From NCBI GenBank assembly GCA_002179805.1, contig NAVB01000358.1, forward strand, positions 1 to 64,000: 64,000 nt of DNA, given 5' to 3'. This document shows positions 13,522 through 22,924 of this stretch, one piece after another. The notes under the pieces are model-generated. The model was not told the DNA's origin, did not search any database, and saw nothing but the letters and a program-made list of their open reading frames with translations. The translations under genes were made by a program, and so were the position numbers. Position 1 is the first letter of the stretch, and each line of letters begins with the position of its first letter. The stretch is from Acanthamoeba lenticulata. Its lineage: Eukaryota; Discosea; Longamoebia; Acanthamoebidae.

Positions 13522-14632
13522 ATGTGTGATCACCACCACCACGGCGGTTGTGCGCATGAGCACACCGAAGAGCCAGAGAAGGAACGAGGAGCCGAGTACA
13601 CACTTTATCAGTATGCACCGTACTCCCGGGACACAAAGACAGGAGCACCTGCAGAGCTGCTTCCTGCAATCCTTTTCACGCACGCTTGCTCACCAGCCCT
13701 CAATCTGTCTGCATTTGTTGCAGATACATCGACACGAGCGGGCTGAGCTGCCTCAACGAGCGCACCAGCGGCTCAGTGGCCAAAGTCTTCAAGCCTTGGG
13801 ACCAGCGCCTCGAACGTTCTGCTGTGCGTGTCCCCGTACTTTGCCCACAAACACACTTCATATTTGACAAGTTGAACTTGAACGTGCCTGTGCAGGTCGT
13901 GGAGAGCGATACTGATGAGCAGCTCATCTTCCACATCCCGTACGCCGCCTTCCCGCGTTGCTCTGTCTTCAAGTACTCTTCTCACTTGCTGTTCTCTTGT
14001 CCATCCCAGCTTCACGGCTTCTATCAAGCTCAAAGCCATCAACATCATCGGTGGCGCCGAAGGCGGCAGCCCCAGCAAGCTCAAGGCGTATGCCACTTCT
14101 CCTTTCCCCTTTCGTCTATGGCATCTCATGATAAACATCAGGTGGATCAACCGAGAGGACATCGACTTCTCGAGCGTCGACGACGTGGCCCCTACACAGG
14201 AGTGGGAGCTTGCCGAGAATCCGCAGGGCGAGATCGAGTATCCAACCAGGTGTGCTCCTGCTCCTCCTTTGGTGCCATCAGATACGATGAACTTGCGCCT
14301 GACGCGGTTGCATGGGCAGGATCACCAAATTCCAGAATGTGACGTCGCTCACGCTGTACATACCAGAGAACTTTGGTGCCGAGCGGACGGTGGTCTCTTA
14401 CATCGGTACCGTCGCTGCGGTGCTCCATCACCAGCTGCTTTCTTGGCTCTCAGCTCATGTTGGTTCACTTTGGCTGTTGCGTTGACAACAACAACAACAA
14501 CAACCAGGGCTCAAGGGCGAGTTCAAGACGCTGAGCCGCAAGGCCGTCAACGTGACCTACGAGTCGGCGGCACAGCTCAAGGACCACAAGGTGCCCGAGT
14601 CGGAGCAGATGGCGCGGCACATTGGCCAGTGA
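13522..14632 (+). CDS. PITHD1: PITH domain-containing protein (PITHD1 type)
   Basis: Seven or so exons encode a complete PITH-domain protein. The N-terminus is His-rich (MCDHHHHGGCAHEH), as in PITHD1 orthologs. Downstream are YIDTSGLSCLNERTSGS and AKVFKPWDQRLE (about 13730-13810), ESDTDEQLIFHIPY, SIKLKAINIIGGAEGGSPSK (about 14020), a DFSSVDD segment, GEIEYPTR, NVTSLTLYIPENFGAERT and finally GLKGEFKTLSRKAVNVTYES, ending MARHIGQ at TGA 14630-14632. The PITH fold was first described as the proteasome-interacting C-terminal domain of thioredoxin-like 1; this protein lacks the thioredoxin part. The animal homolog has been linked to proteasome and transcription-related roles, which cannot be assumed here. 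Confidence 0.9.
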
Positions 14633-14744
14633 AAACGAGAAGAGACTGGCCAATCCAAGAAGTTGTAAAGAGCGTTGCACTGGAGAAGGGAAGCTCCCCC
14701 ATCAACCAGGGATGTAGCGGTTGGTTGTAGGGGCGGTGTTGAAG

Positions 14745-14873
14745 ATGAACAAGCATGGTGAAAAGGCTCAAGCGGCCAGGAGTGGTGTTGTTGTCGTGCC
14801 TGCACTCCGCCCAAACGTCTACTACACTCCGTCTGGTGACGCTCTCGGCCACTGGGCAACATGCCACAAGAGG
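14745..14873 (+). pseudogene. relic first exon of the F-box/eEF1A-like gene family
   Basis: This segment matches the first exons at 15217 and 18607 from the ATG (MNKHGEKAQAARSG) through the terminal CATGCCACAAGAGGCA that marks the exon end in both intact copies. Small deletions shift the frame, so the D-M-P-Q-E end of the exon is no longer read in phase with the ATG. No F-box or GTPase exons follow before the next copy starts at 15217. It is best read as the leftover 5' end of a third tandem copy that was deleted or that failed to duplicate completely. Confidence 0.75.
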
Positions 14874-15216
14874 CACTCATGCTCCTCTCGTGGTCATGAT
14901 GCTGCAGGGTGTGGGCTACTTCATCCCTTGGGTACTCAGCTCCTCATCTGCCTGGGCGTTGACCGCCGCGACCACAAACCCAGTGGCCCCGGGCTGGTTT
15001 CGTGCGCTGCCCTGTTTGAGGGAACTACTCCACGGCGTCAACTGCTCCACTGGTCAGTCAAACAGAGTCAAATAATAAGGCCCGACCATTAGCGACTTTT
15101 GTGAAGCCATGCTGGGAAATATGCGAGAGTTGCTTGTTGGCGCTTCAGTAAAGTGTTGGACACAAGCAGGTCGTTCATCTTGGAGAGCTTCGAGGGGAAA
15201 CAAGGAGGCGTCGAAG
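14874..15216. other. spacer between relic exon and first intact F-box/eEF1A-like gene
   Basis: The 343 bases hold no recognisable gene. The segment probably contains the promoter of the gene starting at 15217, but no TATA-like sequence as clear as the one before the second copy is seen; AAATAATAAGG at about 15067 is a weak candidate. Confidence 0.4.
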
Positions 15217-18200
15217 ATGAATAACAAGAAGAAAGGTGAAAAGGCCCGGGCTACCAGAAGTGGTGTTGCCGTTGTGCCTGTACTCGGACCAAACATCTAC
15301 TACAAGGCGGCCACCCCGTCTAAAGATCTGAATGCCCTCCGACTAAGTGACATGCCACAAGAGGCACGCTCCCACTCCTCTTCCTTCTCAACCTGCCTTC
15401 TTCTTAGCGTAAAAAGCGAGAGATTGGCTTCTTAATTCGTTACCTGACGACATTTTGGGGTACCATACTAAGTAACTACGTCATGGGGCTCTTTGCGCCA
15501 CAGGTGTTGTTGCACATCTTCACGTTCCTCTTCGTGGAGGACCTCATGGTGGTCGGGGCCGTCTGTCGCGACTTTCGCGCCATTTCCAAGGACCACGGCC
15601 TCAACAACAGCTTTCGGTACGCCCTCCTCTCTTCTCCTTGCGTTTCTCCTCATCTTTATTCTGTTCTCCTCACACGACGCTGATTGTTGACGTCGTCGCA
15701 CACGCGCACGCACAGACCCAACGTGAACGTGAGCTTCATCGGCAGCTGCGGCGCGGGCAAGTCGACCCTCGTGGGCCACCTCATGCTCCTGCTCGGCGAG
15801 GCCAAGCAGGTCGACATCAAGAACGCTGAGCAAGCGGCTAAGGACTTCGAGACATCTGTGCGCCCGCATGCGCACCTGACGTTCATCGCCTCGCGCCGCA
15901 AGATTGATCGGTTCGTCGTCATTTTCGTCGTCGTCTTCGTCGTCCTTGTTGTTGTTGTTGTTCGGTGTCCTCAGCCCGTCATCATTCTGATTGTCGCGGT
16001 CGCGGTCGTGCGCAAACGCCAAATTGGTGAACGCAGGGAACGGGGCTTGACGACGGACAACAACTACCTCCACGCGCTGGGCTCGCGCCACCCGGCCGGG
16101 TTCACGCTGATCGACACGCCGGGCCACCGCGAGTACTTCAGGAACACGCTGCGGGGCTTCTTGCAGAGCGACATGGCCGTGTGGGTGGTCGATCGCATCC
16201 ACCGGTCGAGCGAGTTCTACACGCGAGCCGACTCGTTCCTCGAGGCGCCGCTCATGATCGCGGGGTCCAACATGCGGTGCGCGGTGGTGGTGGTCAACAA
16301 GATGGACGAGCGCGTACGATCCCCCCCCCCGCCTTCGCTTTGCATACTTTCGCTACTTTTGATTTATTCGTAATTTAATGAACATTCTTGGGGGGGGGGG
16401 ATGGTCAGGAGTGGAGCACGCGTCAGTATGACGAGATAAAGATCCAACTGGCGCAGATCCTCGCCAAGCGCCGTGTTGACACGAGTACCTCCCTCTTTAC
16501 ACCGCTGCCCACACAAACACCCACCTTTACACCACCCCACACAAACAGCACACCCATCACCAACACCTCACTTTCCCTCAAGGGCCGACAGCTCGTGGGT
16601 TGTGTATTCGTCTCATGTTACTTTGTCTTCATTCCTTTTTTTCTCTTTTATTAAACCTATTTTGCCTGGGCTACGACAGAGAACGTGATCGTTGTGCCCG
16701 TGAGCGCGGCCACCGGCTGGAACCTCGTCCATCGCACCACCGTCCCCTCTGGTACCGTCCAACATGCCCATTGTCGACGTCCGCATATTTTCGAGGTCAA
16801 GGAGGCTGTGATGCTCAATGTGTGTCTGTTTTGGTGGTGGGGTACAGGGGAGGAGAAACCGGACGACATCCGATTGACCTACCAGGGCCCGACCCTGTGG
16901 GAGGCCATCATCAAACTGTCCAACAACGTGCGGCCCAAGGCCCTCAAGCGGCCGTTCCGCCTGAGCGTGGTCAAGATGTGGAACACCACTCTCGCACCCG
17001 GCGTACGTCCGCCCCAATTACAAAATTATAACGATATATATTTTTAAAATAAAAGGTCAACTGATGGTGGGCACGTGACGACGGTGATCACGGACAACAG
17101 GAGAGAAGGCGAGGCTTGATCTTGGGCACCGTCCTCCAGGGTGGGCTCAAAGCCGGCCGCACCGTTCGCCTGTCGCCTGCGCCTGGTGACATGACCAAGT
17201 CTCCCGACATCACCGTACGCTCCCTCTGCGCCCTTCTCTTTATTCTTTTCCTTTTTTTCACGATAGCAAACATTTACCAATTTATTTTTATTTTTATTTG
17301 CGTTTTTACTTGGGTGCTTGCAGGTGTGGGGCATCGGCCACGGCAAGCAGAAGCGCAGTCTAGCCGCGCCGGGCTGCCTTGTGGCGCTGCTGTTGCCAGC
17401 CGGCAAGCTCATCCCGCCCATGCCCAAGCGTGGCCAGGACGGTGCGTTGCAGACCTGCGCCCGGCGTCTTTGGCCAAGTCTCAAGCGTGTGCGCGTTCGT
17501 GTGTGCCATACGTGCACAGGGAGCGGATGGGTGGCGTACGATCCAAAGAAGGAGCCTGACCTTCTCGCCGCGACGCGCTGCTTCGTGGTGCAGCTGATGA
17601 TCTTTGCCGGCAAGTCCATCAACCCGGCGCTCCTCCCCACCGCTGGCCCGAACTACGTACGTTTTTATCCTCTTGTTCTGTTTCTCCGTTATCAGGCAGG
17701 ACTGACGGACTGTGTCGTGGTGATGATCATGGCGACGGTGCAGGGCGTGGGCTTCAGCCCCATTTTCCACTTTGTGAGTGGGGCGTTTGTCGGGCGCGTG
17801 GCGGCCATCCACGAGACCATCGACGTCAAGACCAAGAAGGTAATCGAGCAGAACCCCAAGACCACGAGCGGGGTCGGGCGGCTCTACACGATGACCATCA
17901 TGGCCAAATGCGCGCGCATCATCGAGCCTTACAGCAAGAACAGCTCATTTGGGCGCTTCTTCGTCACCGACAACAGGTCCGTCGATCGCTGCCACCCCGG
18001 CGTCATCACCCACCACCAACCTTCACCACTCATTCTTGTTCCTCGGCGGCGGTGGTGATTGTCGCTTGTGCGTGTGAAAATGTCGGCGACATCGCGGGGC
18101 ATGCAGTATCTTGGTCGGGGCCGGCGTGGTCAAGTATGCGGTGCCGGCCAACAAGACGCAGGCCTGGCGCGACCTGCATCTTCCTTTAGGCTCGCGCTTG

Positions 18201-18473
18201 TACGCACTCACCCTCCCTCGCGGCCTTGCCTGCACATGCACTCTTGTCGCTCACACATGATGAACCCGATCGTGTCGGGGCCACCAACAACAAACGCACA
18301 GCGGCCCAGACCGGGGGCTCCAGCGCTGCACGCACACTGGCTACTGGGGCAATCCCCGTCCGGAGATTGGCTACATCGCAAGCCACCAGCGACATGTGGC
18401 GTGCGCCGAATGCTTCCTGACCAACGTCACGGCCAACCCTTCCATCCTCAATAATGCCTACTGCCCAGAGTGA
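15217..18473 (+). CDS. F-box protein fused to eEF1A-like translation GTPase, copy 1
   Basis: About 13 exons, roughly 620 residues. Exon 1 (15217-15363) ends DMPQE; exon 2 (15504-15616) starts VLLHIFTFLFVEDLM, and together they form an F-box (L-x-D-M-P-Q-E-V-L-L-H-I-F), the Skp1-binding motif of SCF ligases. Exon 3 (from 15716) opens the GTPase: P-loop GSCGAGKST, switch ERGLTTD, G3 IDTPGHREYF (keeping the eEF1A catalytic His), G4 NKMD, and VPVSAATGWN. Domains II and III follow (LILGTVLQGGLKAGRTVRLS, then IEQNPKTTSGVGRLYTMTI and GRFFVTDN), aligning with eEF1A to its end. A short tail has RCTH, CAEC and NAYCPE before TGA 18471-18473. The first intron (15364-15503) uses a GC donor. Translation activity is doubtful; role as an SCF adaptor with a GTPase module is inference. 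Confidence 0.85.
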
Positions 18474-18540
18474 TGATCGTCGTCATCCGTGAACATGAAG
18501 ACGCCATTGAACAGTCGGGTTGTGTCCGTCATCCGTTAAT

Positions 18541-18548
18541 TATAAAAG
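18541..18548 (+). promoter_or_regulatory. TATA box of F-box/eEF1A-like copy 2
   Basis: TATAAAAG lies 59 bases before the start codon at 18607, in the only 133 bases between the stop of copy 1 and the start of copy 2. This is close to the consensus TATA element, and at that spacing it would give a short 5' UTR, so copy 2 likely has its own promoter. Confidence 0.55.
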
Positions 18549-18606
18549 TACAAAATTTTAACTGCCATAACTGCCACAAGGGGCGGACCGGAGCAGAGTG
18601 TTGAAG

Positions 18607-21600
18607 ATGAACACGCAAGGTGAAAAGGCTCAAGCGGCCAGAAATGGTGGTGTTGTGCCCGCACTTGGACCAAACGACGACAAGGCGGCCACCCCGTCCG
18701 GCGATCTAAACGGCCTCCGGCTCATTGACATGCCACAAGAGGCACACTGAGGCTCCCCCAAAGCGTTGAATCAAAATGCATTTCATATTTTTATTTTATT
18801 TTATATTTTGCTGACGGTAATGGGCGCTATTACCACGCTGCGCCGCAGGTGTTGTTGCACATCTTCACGTTCCTCTTCGTGGAGGACCTCATGGTGGTCG
18901 GGGCCGTCTGTCGCGACTTTCGTGCTATTTCGATGGACCCTGGCCTCGAAAACAGCCACCGGTACGCCCCCTCCTCCCCTCTTCGGCCTCTCTGTTGCCA
19001 AGTTGCCTCGCGTTTCTATTCATCCTTGTCCTCGTCCTCTCCACACGACGCTGATTGTTGACGTCGTCGCACACGCGCACGCACAGACCCAACTTGAACG
19101 TGAGCTTCATCGGCAGCTGCGGCGCGGGCAAGTCGACCCTTGTGGGCCACCTCATGCTCCTGCTCGGCGAGGCCAAGCAGGTCGACATCAAGAACGCTGC
19201 CCAAGCGGCCCAGGAATTTGGCAGCCCTAGGCGCTCAGCGCATGCGCACCTGACGTTCATCGCCTCGCGCCGCAAGCTCGATCGGTTCGTCATCGCCGTC
19301 CTCGTCGTCATTGTCTTCATTGTTGTATTATCAACAGTGCGCCGTTGCCGTCGTCGTTCTCACGTTGATTGCAGGGAACGGGGCTTGACGACAGACAACA
19401 ACTACCTCCACGTGCTGGACTCGCGCCACCCGGCCGGGTTCGCGCTGATCGACACGCCGGGCCACCGCGAGTACTTCAGGAACACGCTGCGAGGCTTCTT
19501 GCAGAGCGACATGGCCGTGTGGGTGGTCAATCGCGTCCACGGCGAGTCCGACGAGGACTACACGCGAGCCGACTCCTTTCACGAGGCGCCGCTCATGATC
19601 GCGGGGTCCAACATGCGGTGCGCGGTGGTGGTGGTCAACAAGATGGACGAGCGCGTACGATCCCCCCCCCCGCCTTCGCTTTTCATACTTTTCATTCTTT
19701 TTGTATTATTTTTAAACATACTTGGGGGAGGGGATGGACAGGAGTGGAGCACGCCTCAGTTTGACGAGATCAAGACCCAACTGGAGCAGATCCTCGCCAA
19801 GCGCCGTGTTGACACGAGTACCTCCTCTCCCGCTGGCCAAAAACAAATCACGTAATCCATCACAATATTTTATCCCTTTCTCGACTTGACTTTCTTGACG
19901 TGGCTGTTGCAATAGAGAGCGTGATCATTGTGCCCGTGAGCGCGGCCACCGGCTGGAACCTCGTCCATCGCACCACTGTCCCGTCCGGTACCGTCCAACA
20001 TGCCGAACCCCATTCCGACACCATCATTCCCAATGGTGTTTTTTCTTCTTTTTTATTTGCTGATGATGGTTATCGATGGCCGCAACTTAATGTTTTATTT
20101 TACTTTACTTTACTTTATTTTATTTTATTTTATTTTATTTTATTTTATTTTATTTTATTTTATTTTATTTTTTGTTGGGATGGGGGTGGAACAGGGGAGA
20201 AGCCGGACGACATCCGATTGACCTACCAGGGCCCGACCCTGTGGGAGGCCATCATCAAACTGTCCAACAACGTGCCCCCTAAGGCCCTCAAACAACCGTT
20301 CCGCCTGAGCGTGGTCAAGATGTGGAACACCACTCTCGCATCCGGCGTACGTCCGCCCTGAGCACCCCCTCCTGGAGTCTTTTTTTTTTGTTTATCAATC
20401 AAAAAGAATAATTATGACTTTGAATGGATAGATAAATTAAAAAATTAAATGTTGATAATTTGGATTTTTTTAATTTAATTTAATGATGATCCACCGATGG
20501 ACCTCACGTGCCATCTCGGATAACAGGAGAAGAGGCAAGGCTTAATCTTGGGCACCGTCCTCCAGGGCATGCTCAAGACTGGCAGCACCATCCGCCTGTC
20601 GCCTACGCCTAGAAACATGACCAAGTCTCCCGACATCACCGTGCGCTCCCTTCCTCTCCGCTTCTATTTTGTTCTTTTTATTCAATTTATCAAAGATCTC
20701 TTGAATATGTTTTGGTTTATCATTTCGTTGTATTACTATTTTTAATATTTGAGTGTGCGGCAGGTGTGGGGCATCGGGCATGGCAAGCGGAAGCGCAGCG
20801 TGGCCGCGCCGGGCTGCCTCGTGGCACTGCTGCTGCCGGCCGGCAAGCTCATCCCATTCGATCCCATGCGCGGCCAGGACGGTGCGTTCAGGGAACCCTC
20901 AGCGCCCTTTCGTGCCGACCAAAGCTCACGCAAGCCCGCCGCGCGTGCGCGTTCGCGTGTGCCGTATGCACAGGGAGCGGGTGGGTGGCGTACGATCCGA
21001 ACAAGGAGCCCGACCTCCTCAACGCGACGTGCTGCTTCGTGGTGCAGCTGATGATCTTTGCCGGCAAGTCCATCAACCCGGCGCTCCTCCCCACCGACGG
21101 CCCGCGCTACGTGCGTTTATTTACTTTTTATATCGATCATGGATTGGTCGATCTTTAATATGGCTGCTGACGTGTCGTCTGTAATGGTGATGATGGTGCT
21201 GATGGTGATGGTGCAGGGTGTGGACTTTTGCCCCACTTTTCACTTTGTGAGTGGAGCGTTTGTCGGGCGCGTGGCGGCCATCCACGAGACCATCGACGTC
21301 AAGACCAAGAAGGTAATCGAGCAGAACCCCAAGACCACGAGCGGGGTCGGGCGGCTCTACACGATGACCATCACGGCCAAATGCGCGCGCATCATCGAGC
21401 CTTACAGCAAGAACAGCTCGCTTGGACGCTTTTTCGTCACCGACAACAGGTCCGTCAATCGCTACCGCCCCAGCATCACCACCAATCATTCTTGTCCACT
21501 CGTTCTTGTTCCTCGGCGGTGGTGGTGCGTGTGTCTTGGCTCACCGGGCGAACGCAGTGCATTGGTCGGGGCCGGCGTGGTCAAGTACGCGGTGCCGGCC

Positions 21601-21970
21601 AACATGACGCCGGCCTGGCGTGCCCTGAAACTCCCCGAACGCTCGCGCTTGTGCGCTCTCGCCCTCGCCCTCACCCTCTCTCTCCCTCTCTCTCTCTCTC
21701 TCTTGGGGTCCGGCTCCTCACCCGGGCGCGCGTGTGTTTGTGTGTGCCTGCGTCCGGTGGCGCGGATTGAGATGCAGTGGCCCGGAACAGGGAATGGAGC
21801 GCTGCGAGCACTTGACTCGCTGGCCGAGACGCCTTCCGGAGATCTGCTTCCTCCATCCCCCAGAGTTTGGGACGCGCTGGAGACGGCGTATGGTGTGCGC
21901 TGACTGCTGTCTGGTGGAAGCCAAGATCGACCCTTCCAGCCTCGGTCATGCCTACTGCCCACCAGAATGA
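18607..21970 (+). CDS. F-box protein fused to eEF1A-like translation GTPase, copy 2
   Basis: This tandem paralog has the same exon plan as copy 1. Exon 1 (18607-18741) encodes MNTQGEKAQAARNGG through DMPQE. A GC-AG intron (18742-18848) leads to VLLHIFTFLFVEDLM. The GTPase motifs are again intact: GSCGAGKST, ERGLTTD, IDTPGHREYF, NKMD. Differences cluster in spacers: HGESDEDYTRADSFHEAP instead of HRSSEFYTRADSFLEAP, and a divergent tail (RCEH, VCADCCL, HAYCPPE; stop 21968-21970). Several introns stay recognisably similar, including a poly-C run after the NKMDER exon, so the duplication is fairly recent. One intron has gained a TTTTA array. Both copies keep open frames and splice sites, so both are probably functional. 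Confidence 0.85.
20092..20172. repeat. TTTTA/TTTAC pentanucleotide microsatellite in an intron
   Basis: About 80 bases of TTTTA units with a few TTTAC variants at the left end. It sits in the intron between the PSG and EKPDDIRL exons of copy 2. The equivalent intron of copy 1 (about 16752-16849) has no such array, so it arose after the duplication. Confidence 0.95.
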
Positions 21971-22069: not shown

Positions 22070-22606
22070 TCACAAGTGCCAACGCGCATGCCAGGGGCAG
22101 CCATTGGCGTGCGCCCACTCGACCACGTCCAGATGACCTTCGTCGGCCTTGACGCAGGTGCTCTTGTCCCACGGGCAGCCGTTGGCGCGCGCCCACTGGA
22201 GCACGGCCAGGTGGCCTCCCTTGGCCGCCATGCGGCAGGTCCAAGAGTCCCATGGACAGCCATTGGCACGCGCCCATCGGAGCACGGCCAGCTGGCCTCC
22301 CTTGGCCGACTCGCTGCATACGCCCTCGTCCCACGGGCACCCGCTTGAGTGCGCCCACTGGAGCATGGACAGCCAGCCCTTGCTGGCCACTTGTTCGGTG
22401 TAGTTGTGGAGGAGACCGAGCGCGCCTGGTGGTTCGGCGACATAAAGATGGGAGCAGGCTTTGGCCCACTTGCGGCACACGGCACGGCAGGCCGGCAGGC
22501 TCAGGGGCTGCACGAAGCGGAGGACGCAGCTGACGAGCTCCACCATGAGGTCACTAATGCCAACTAAGGGCAACGCTCCTGTCGGCACAGGCTCTGGGTG
22601 CTGCAT
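22070..22606 (-). CDS. F-box-like protein with GCPW-type ankyrin repeats
   Basis: A single-exon 178-residue protein from ATG 22606 to the stop at 22070. Residues 15-50 form an F-box-like helix bundle (ISDLMVELVSCVLRFV, then ACRAVCRKWAKACSHLY). After that come four repeats of about 27 residues with the hallmark WARANGCPWD or WAHANGCPW; each has the form G-x-L-x-x-L-x-W-A-x-x-x-G-C-P-W. This repeat variant is common in Acanthamoeba and in its giant viruses, so gene exchange between them is possible for this family. It is likely an SCF adaptor with a repeat substrate-binding surface. It is short compared with relatives that carry ten or more repeats. Confidence 0.75.
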   Translation of the reverse strand: MQHPEPVPTGALPLVGISDLMVELVSCVLRFVQPLSLPACRAVCRKWAKACSHLYVAEPPGALGLLHNYTEQVASKGWLSMLQWAHSSGCPWDEGVCSESAKGGQLAVLRWARANGCPWDSWTCRMAAKGGHLAVLQWARANGCPWDKSTCVKADEGHLDVVEWAHANGCPWHARWHL

Positions 22607-22924
22607 TTCTGCAGCAAGAGCAAGAGGGTGGGGTGGCGGAAACGACGGTGTGGCGTCTTGTTCGGTGGTCCTCAGTTGGTCATCACTCCATTCGGCAACC
22701 GTTGGGTAAACGTTGTGTGACCCCGAAAGGAAGAATGAAAAAGACGACTTGTTTATCGCGTATTAGCTCCGGCACACTCTTGCTGCCCACACCCACGGTA
22801 CATTGAATCGTCTTCTCCGTTATCTCGCTTGCCCTTTGCGCGATATTCCACCCGCCTCGCAACGACCTGAAGGGCTTAATCTTGCCATCACTTGATTTGT
22901 ATAATTTTTAGTTCGTAACGGAAG
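22607..22924. promoter_or_regulatory. divergent intergenic region, ankyrin gene / aminotransferase
   Basis: The 318 bases separate divergent starts at 22606 and 22925. TATAAT at about 22900 lies 25 bases before the aminotransferase ATG and could be a TATA element with a very short leader. No gene or RNA is apparent. Confidence 0.4.

Follow-up and report, generated by a model that had tools for sequence, protein, structure and literature searches.

In F-box proteins a single docking domain is found with a wide range of substrate modules, and the eEF1A paralogues eRF3, HBS1 and SKI7 bring partners to the ribosome. Here we describe a locus of the amoeba Acanthamoeba lenticulata in which the two kinds of protein are predicted to be joined. 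Within the window analyzed (positions 1 to 64,000 of contig NAVB01000358.1, assembly GCA_002179805.1; 64,000 nucleotides), two tandem genes between positions 15,217 and 21,970 each encode an F-box followed by a translational GTPase of the EF1 group.

Like the F-box proteins of the FBXO type, which are receptors of Skp1-Cullin-F-box (SCF) ubiquitin ligases, the predicted proteins carry an N-terminal F-box scoring above the Pfam cut-off and then a separate folded module, but in this case a translational GTPase forms the module, a partnership absent from the papers listed in our searches. Like HBS1/SKI7 (and eRF3), they are paralogues of eEF1A that carry an N-terminal addition and whose aminoacyl pocket has changed; the N-terminal F-box, a place in the tree outside the HBS1+eRF3 clade, and the loss of an Asp in the P-loop set them apart. 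From eEF1A and archaeal EF1A, to which they are ~25% identical, they differ by the missing pocket residues and P-loop Asp and by the fused F-box. The N-terminal domain of HBS1L is reported to bind ubiquitin (PMC13232801), which provides a precedent for the mechanism proposed below. The ankyrin/F-box-like proteins of Orientia also unite an EF1-type protein with SCF1, although there EF1-alpha is what the bacterial adaptor targets (PMC4148323), whereas here the EF1-type part would be built into the adaptor. Giant-virus GTPases of the EF1 family are likewise divergent EF1-group proteins linked with amoebae; the same study gives eEF1A1, eEF1A2, eRF3, and HBS1 for A. castellanii, and its main text contains the term F-box 0 times (PMC6582330). 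An overview of translational GTPases counts eRF3, Hbs1, Ski7, EFL, and GTPBP among the EF1 relatives (PMC4342817), and F-box and GTP_EFTU both appear as mobile domains in PMC8409312, the available portion of which holds nothing on an F-box/GTPase fusion.

A preliminary description of the locus knew of no described SCF adaptor that carries a translation-factor GTPase. This agrees with the literature searched, in which no description of an F-box/EF1-type GTPase fusion was found among the papers listed, as judged by titles and the openings of abstracts and with subscription papers mostly outside the search. Both parts belong to known families; to the extent covered by our searches, it is their combination, with a separate clade and a missing P-loop Asp, that is new. 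A conserved fusion would directly and physically link SCF ubiquitylation to the translation-factor fold, and, if our interpretation is true, would provide a ubiquitin ligase with a nucleotide-binding switch as its receptor, a case open to testing.

Structure, conservation, and recurrence of the fusion

Both genes lie on the forward strand (Table 1) and, when spliced by hand-placed anchors, consist of 13 exons in one frame, running from ATG to a single terminal stop with neither frameshifts nor internal stops. The 12 introns have the same place and phase in the two copies. Twenty-two of the 24 introns are GT-AG, all with GTNC donors; intron 1 is GC-AG in both copies, and its donors (15364-15369 and 18742-18747) deviate from this pattern by one letter. 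The spliced models bear out the preliminary description as to the phase (CG|A) of the 15616/15716 junction and the common frame of F-box and GTPase; that description makes no mention of the GC donor in intron 1. A long TTTTA-type repeat lies at 20090-20170, within intron 6 of copy 2.

Table 1. Predicted features of the tandem locus (coordinates in the window)
Feature	Positions	Strand	Content	Basis or remark
Copy 1, F-box::translational-GTPase gene	15217..18473	+	13 exons, 633 amino acids	gene model, Pfam
Copy 1 exon 1	15217..15363	+	N-terminal tail and F-box start (..LRLSDMPQE|)	gene model, Pfam
Copy 1 intron 1	15364..15503	+	GC-AG, donor GCACGC	GT donor at same place in P0135
Copy 1 exon 2	15504..15616	+	remainder of F-box (VLLHIFTFLFVEDLMVVGAVCRDFRAIS) and linker	gene model, Pfam, Skp2 alignment
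Copy 1 G domain, exons 3-6 and part of 7	15716..16915	+	residues 87-316: P-loop, switch I, DTPGH, NKMD, SA	boundaries approximate
Copy 1 domain II	16916..17527	+	residues 317-425, without aminoacyl pocket residues	boundaries approximate
Copy 1 domain III	17528..18149	+	residues 426-560, GTP-eEF1A_C	boundaries approximate
Copy 1 C-terminal tail	18150..18473	+	residues 561-633, fast-evolving, Cys-containing	dN/dS 0.97
Copy 2, F-box::translational-GTPase gene	18607..21970	+	13 exons, 637 amino acids	gene model, Pfam
Copy 2 exon 1	18607..18741	+	N-terminal tail and F-box start	gene model, Pfam
Copy 2 intron 1	18742..18848	+	GC-AG, donor GCACAC	gene model
Copy 2 exon 2	18849..18961	+	remainder of F-box and linker	gene model, Pfam
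Copy 2 exons 3-13	19087..21970	+	G domain, domain II, domain III, C-terminal tail	gene model, Pfam
Third-copy relic	14736..14876	+	exon 1 and start of intron 1	BLASTN 76% to copy 2, E 7e-23

Pfam places an F-box in both spliced proteins. The F-box-like family PF12937 scores 36.8 bits (expect value, E, 3.4e-9) in copy 1 and 36.0 bits (E 6.1e-9) in copy 2, with a cut-off of 24.3, and PF00646 scores 27.4 and 23.0 bits (cut-off 20.5). GTP_EFTU follows with E values of 9.7e-26 and 9.2e-27, and domain III (GTP-eEF1A_C) with 40.3 and 41.9 bits (cut-off 27). The domain search that had been suggested thus recovers the F-box, GTP_EFTU, and domain III, but not domain II, which remains below its cut-off of 30.3 in copy 2 (12.9 bits) and has no listed match in copy 1.

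The exons of the two copies are 88% identical and the introns 64% (ungapped columns, summed by hand). For core residues 42-560, nonsynonymous (dN) and synonymous (dS) divergences of 0.064 and 0.175 give a dN/dS ratio of 0.37, and none of 300 bootstraps had dS equal to or lower than dN; purifying selection acts on the core. The ratio is 0.21 in the F-box (43 codons, without bootstrap) and 0.31 in domain III (bootstrap 0.01), and reaches 0.97 in the C-terminal tail (bootstrap 0.48). The genes therefore look functional, with a fast-evolving tail. A pseudogene or a chance fusion was considered and rejected, the frames being unbroken and the core constrained.

Protein searches scored limited candidate sets of 8000 (154 and 149 hits) and 5280 sequences (57 hits); because they were limited by shared words, length, and candidate number, more relatives may exist. 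Among the best 120 of the 154 hits, P0001 scored 826 bits and P0002 348, the next hit scoring 90, and these two together with the window copies make up the family of four members considered here. P0002 (586 amino acids, 2163-base contig, 39% identity) contains a full F-box and GTPase in a single frame, with PF12937 above its cut-off. P0001 (573 amino acids, 1792-base contig, 63% identity) begins within the F-box and continues into the GTPase; taken alone it has no Pfam F-box match. It reads across the positions of introns 2 to 11 and probably also of intron 12, where the tail is less alignable. The order of F-box and GTPase, as read from these predicted proteins, is not due to chance and recurs outside this genome: P0002 shows it completely, P0001 with the 3' half of the F-box. 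With the gene models and the Pfam matches, this recurrence confirms the earlier proposal of an F-box and GTPase fusion in two intact tandem copies. In the A. lenticulata genome itself (48.5 Mb, 1825 contigs), all matches of at least 60% identity among those listed, from 45 in all, fall in this locus.

A further sequence, P0135 (163 amino acids, 2829-base contig), was obtained with the first 293 residues (57 hits) and ends before the GTPase. Its sequence looks like that of an unspliced relative of exons 1 and 2 whose introns occupy the corresponding positions: MPEE is followed by a Val codon (GTN), unrelated sequence, and then VLLHIF..., and the reading after NNYR fits intron 2. The Val codon would represent a GT donor, and this arrangement puts intron 1 at its modelled position. 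P0135 has GT where both window copies have GC; the change may be older than the duplication.

A divergent GTPase of the EF1 group

Profile-profile alignment to the EF1A group spans residues 85-558 (E 1.1e-53, ~25% identity), and the predicted structure of P0002 matches EF1A across all three domains. The EF1-group architecture, a G domain followed by two beta-barrels in EF1A order, is thus present in the predicted proteins. The C-terminal tail was modelled with low confidence (the P0001 model has an overall predicted local distance difference test score, pLDDT, of 72.9 and a predicted template modelling score of 0.75). A zinc-binding role of this tail was considered and rejected: Cys residues recur in it, but the sole domain hint is a DUF3716 match in P0001 that does not reach its cut-off (17.2 bits versus 22).

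A GSCGAGKST P-loop (given as GAGKST in the preliminary description) and, as had been stated, ERGLTTD, DTPGH with the catalytic His, and NKMD are common to both copies. When the four family members were compared at key sites with 36 reference rows, the P-loop Lys/Ser, the switch II Asp and Gly, the catalytic His, and NKxD were kept in all four; the switch I Thr is present in three of the four in this alignment and in all four in the family alignment. The P-loop Asp, invariant in the 36 reference rows although no published rule known to us treats it as diagnostic, is replaced by G, G, G, and N, so that the family would add to the EF1 group a clade devoid of it. In P-loop nucleoside triphosphatases, Asn or Asp at such a position is described as going with an activating cation, the residue otherwise being usually Gly or Ala (PMC6310460); by motif reading, our column appears to match this position. 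With the nucleotide motifs kept and the P-loop Asp lost, the window proteins should bind nucleotide but may hydrolyze it differently.

The residues EMHH, DN, and R, which we take to form the aminoacyl pocket, are found in 14 of 14 eEF1A and archaeal EF1A rows and in none of the four members; the pocket is also altered in most HBS1 and eRF3 rows. The proposal in the preliminary description that the fusion recognizes tRNA-linked substrates is thereby weakened. Its designation of the proteins as eEF1A-like needs correction: the predicted GTPase is a divergent member of the eEF1A/HBS1/eRF3 group and not an eEF1A. Consistently, the TIGR00483 EF-1 alpha model gives 146.7 bits for P0001, 184.6 for P0002, and 57.9 for one stretch of copy 1, all below the cut-off of 540.1.

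The phylogenetic tree contained 39 hand-picked rows, labelled HBS1, eRF3, or CysN from their names and Pfam matches, with the fragment row L043 left out. The four family members group together (100/100), their stem measuring 2.28 changes per site, in a clade which falls with eEF1A and HBS1+eRF3 and not with CysN; its position was unchanged by the addition of four viral rows. The eEF1A rows form their own clade (100/99) with the family outside, and the 13 HBS1+eRF3 rows group without it (97/98, or 96/99 with the viral rows), although the family, with its long stem and weakly defined sister, may lie beside them. The GTPase is therefore placed in a long-branched clade of its own near eEF1A, HBS1, and eRF3. 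Kinship with CysN, prompted by DTPGH, finds no support in this tree, where the nine CysN rows split off without the family (100/99).

Possible functions of the fusion

At about even confidence, we propose that the two working gene copies encode a substrate receptor of SCF ligases, with a remodelled eEF1A-superfamily GTPase on the substrate side. The F-box would dock on Skp1-Cullin-1, and the module of GTPase, domain II, and domain III would bind GTP and, in a nucleotide-dependent shape, a protein ligand rather than aminoacyl-tRNA. By analogy, it might grip this ligand in the way that eRF1 is held by eRF3 and Pelota by HBS1, and the ligand may link it to the ribosome. The ligand, or its seat or neighbour (a translation factor, nascent chain, or ribosome), would then be ubiquitylated. 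The Asp-to-Gly change in the window copies would probably make hydrolysis slow or no longer ribosome-triggered, and with slow hydrolysis the nucleotide may hold the binding shape rather than cycle quickly. The SCF role is plausible: the closest solved F-box is that of Skp2, which shares 13 of 39 residues by hand count, and the genome contains Skp1 and cullin genes. A nucleotide-gated adaptor is possible, the motifs and the catalytic His being kept and the P-loop Asp not. More tentatively, and with rather little confidence, we suggest that the GTPase, having lost tRNA binding and the cation trigger, delivers SCF to an eRF1- or Pelota-type protein, a nascent chain, or the ribosome, with the nucleotide state deciding on ubiquitylation.

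Several observations weigh against a receptor of this kind. Both genes are splice models predicted from genomic sequence and require the GC donor of intron 1, and P0001 and P0002 are read as transcripts because their contigs lack introns. The Skp2 match is weak (E 0.005), residues 1-66 of P0002, including the F-box, are modelled at pLDDT <50, and PF00646 in P0002 (18.7 bits) stays under the cut-off of 20.5. The G domain has a dN/dS of 0.56 (bootstrap 0.027), and the sister of the long-stemmed family clade is weakly defined (93/56). Furthermore, the site of K100 is basic in all four members (R, R, R, K) and Pro in 13 of 13 HBS1/eRF3 rows, making the likeness to these factors a mixed one. Skp1 binding, GTP binding, and the substrate are themselves predictions.

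Alternatively, the F-box may control the GTPase itself, setting its turnover or parking the module on Skp1 while no other protein is ubiquitylated, with the module's own job lying in translation, the cytoskeleton, or signalling. SCF-independent F-box proteins are on record (PMC3814724) and the GTPase core is kept almost whole. However, the stretch from F-box to P-loop is ungapped, and the linker has the same length in all four members despite the 39% identity of P0002; this would hold F-box and GTPase at a set angle and, without being decisive, suits a receptor of fixed geometry. We consider such self-control unlikely. The basic residue at the K100 site, together with the retained catalytic His, NKxD, and three domains, would also suit a specialized translation GTPase active on the ribosome and merely recruited by its F-box to a Skp1-containing complex. 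The aminoacyl pocket, however, is absent from all four members, and the P-loop Asp is changed in each of them and in 0 of 36 references. We hold this explanation to be distinctly improbable.

Orientia provides a basis for a third explanation, an integrated decoy in which an eEF1A mimic on the host SCF catches parasite or viral attackers of eEF1A for destruction: bacterial ankyrin/F-box-like proteins interact with Skp1/Cullin-1 as well as with EF1-alpha, whose level one of them reduces (PMC4148323). The tandem copies, the third-copy relic, and the fast-evolving tail suggest turnover, but the proteins are only ~25% identical to the EF1A group and their core evolves conservatively. In addition, Ser53, presumably modified by a bacterial glucosyltransferase, corresponds to H, H, N, and E in the four members. 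A decoy for Ser53-modifying bacterial enzymes was accordingly rejected, and an integrated decoy appears very improbable to us; the decoy for eEF1A partners suggested in the preliminary description retains some probability despite the ~25% identity. Least likely of all, and hardly credible, is a fusion in appearance only, with exons 1-2 and 3-13 belonging to separate transcripts or with intron 1 unspliced and the genes decaying. The genomic basis of the models and the GC donors would allow for this, as would a possible in-frame GT donor 45 bases downstream in copy 1. Against it stand the uninterrupted F-box and GTPase frame of P0002, the joining of the F-box 3' half to the GTPase in P0001, and the intact, constrained reading frames of both copies; moreover, the Met nearest upstream of the P-loop is residue 64 of copy 1, within the F-box, and residue 74 of copy 2, where the F-box ends.

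Genomic setting and viral scans

The same genome yielded 149 F-box exon matches among 150 scored (656 candidates), six matches to Skp1, 27 to cullins (not all above the cut-off), and three of the eRF1/Pelota type, although part of these may represent two haplotypes of one gene. Its actin shows no difference over 375 residues from PDB 4efh (Actin-1), an Acanthamoeba protein. The published genome of Acanthamoeba castellanii has a mean of 6.2 introns per gene (PMC4053784). Divergent eEF1A paralogues are present on contigs C422 (L037), C717 (L035), and C1579 (L036), those of C717 and C1579 having DVPGH in switch II, and the canonical eEF1A gene is on C930/C1297. L043 and L044 (DYPS01, labelled Desulfosporosinus) encode a eukaryote-type eEF1A that is 78 and 77% identical to that of the amoeba; in a bacterial metagenome assembly, they are probably contamination.

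Viral contigs scanned with the family alignment, P0002, and P0001 contained no relative. When an EF1A/HBS1/eRF3 alignment served as query, five loci were obtained, four of which were placed in the tree, all with CysN; two of the five (L102 and L105) are identical in sequence across their overlap. A viral origin was rejected within the scope of these scans, which brought in no giant-virus EF1-type gene that could be placed. L104 (IMGVR_UViG_3300030818_000095, filed as viral) is an EF1A-type fragment with 57% identity to archaeal EF1A over query residues 1-112 and was left out of the tree.

The tandem pair is flanked upstream by an exon stretch with a PITH domain match (13560-14339). On its other side, a reverse-strand gene (22070-22759) combines an F-box (PF00646, 24 bits; cut-off 20.5) with ankyrin repeats, an ordinary F-box architecture.

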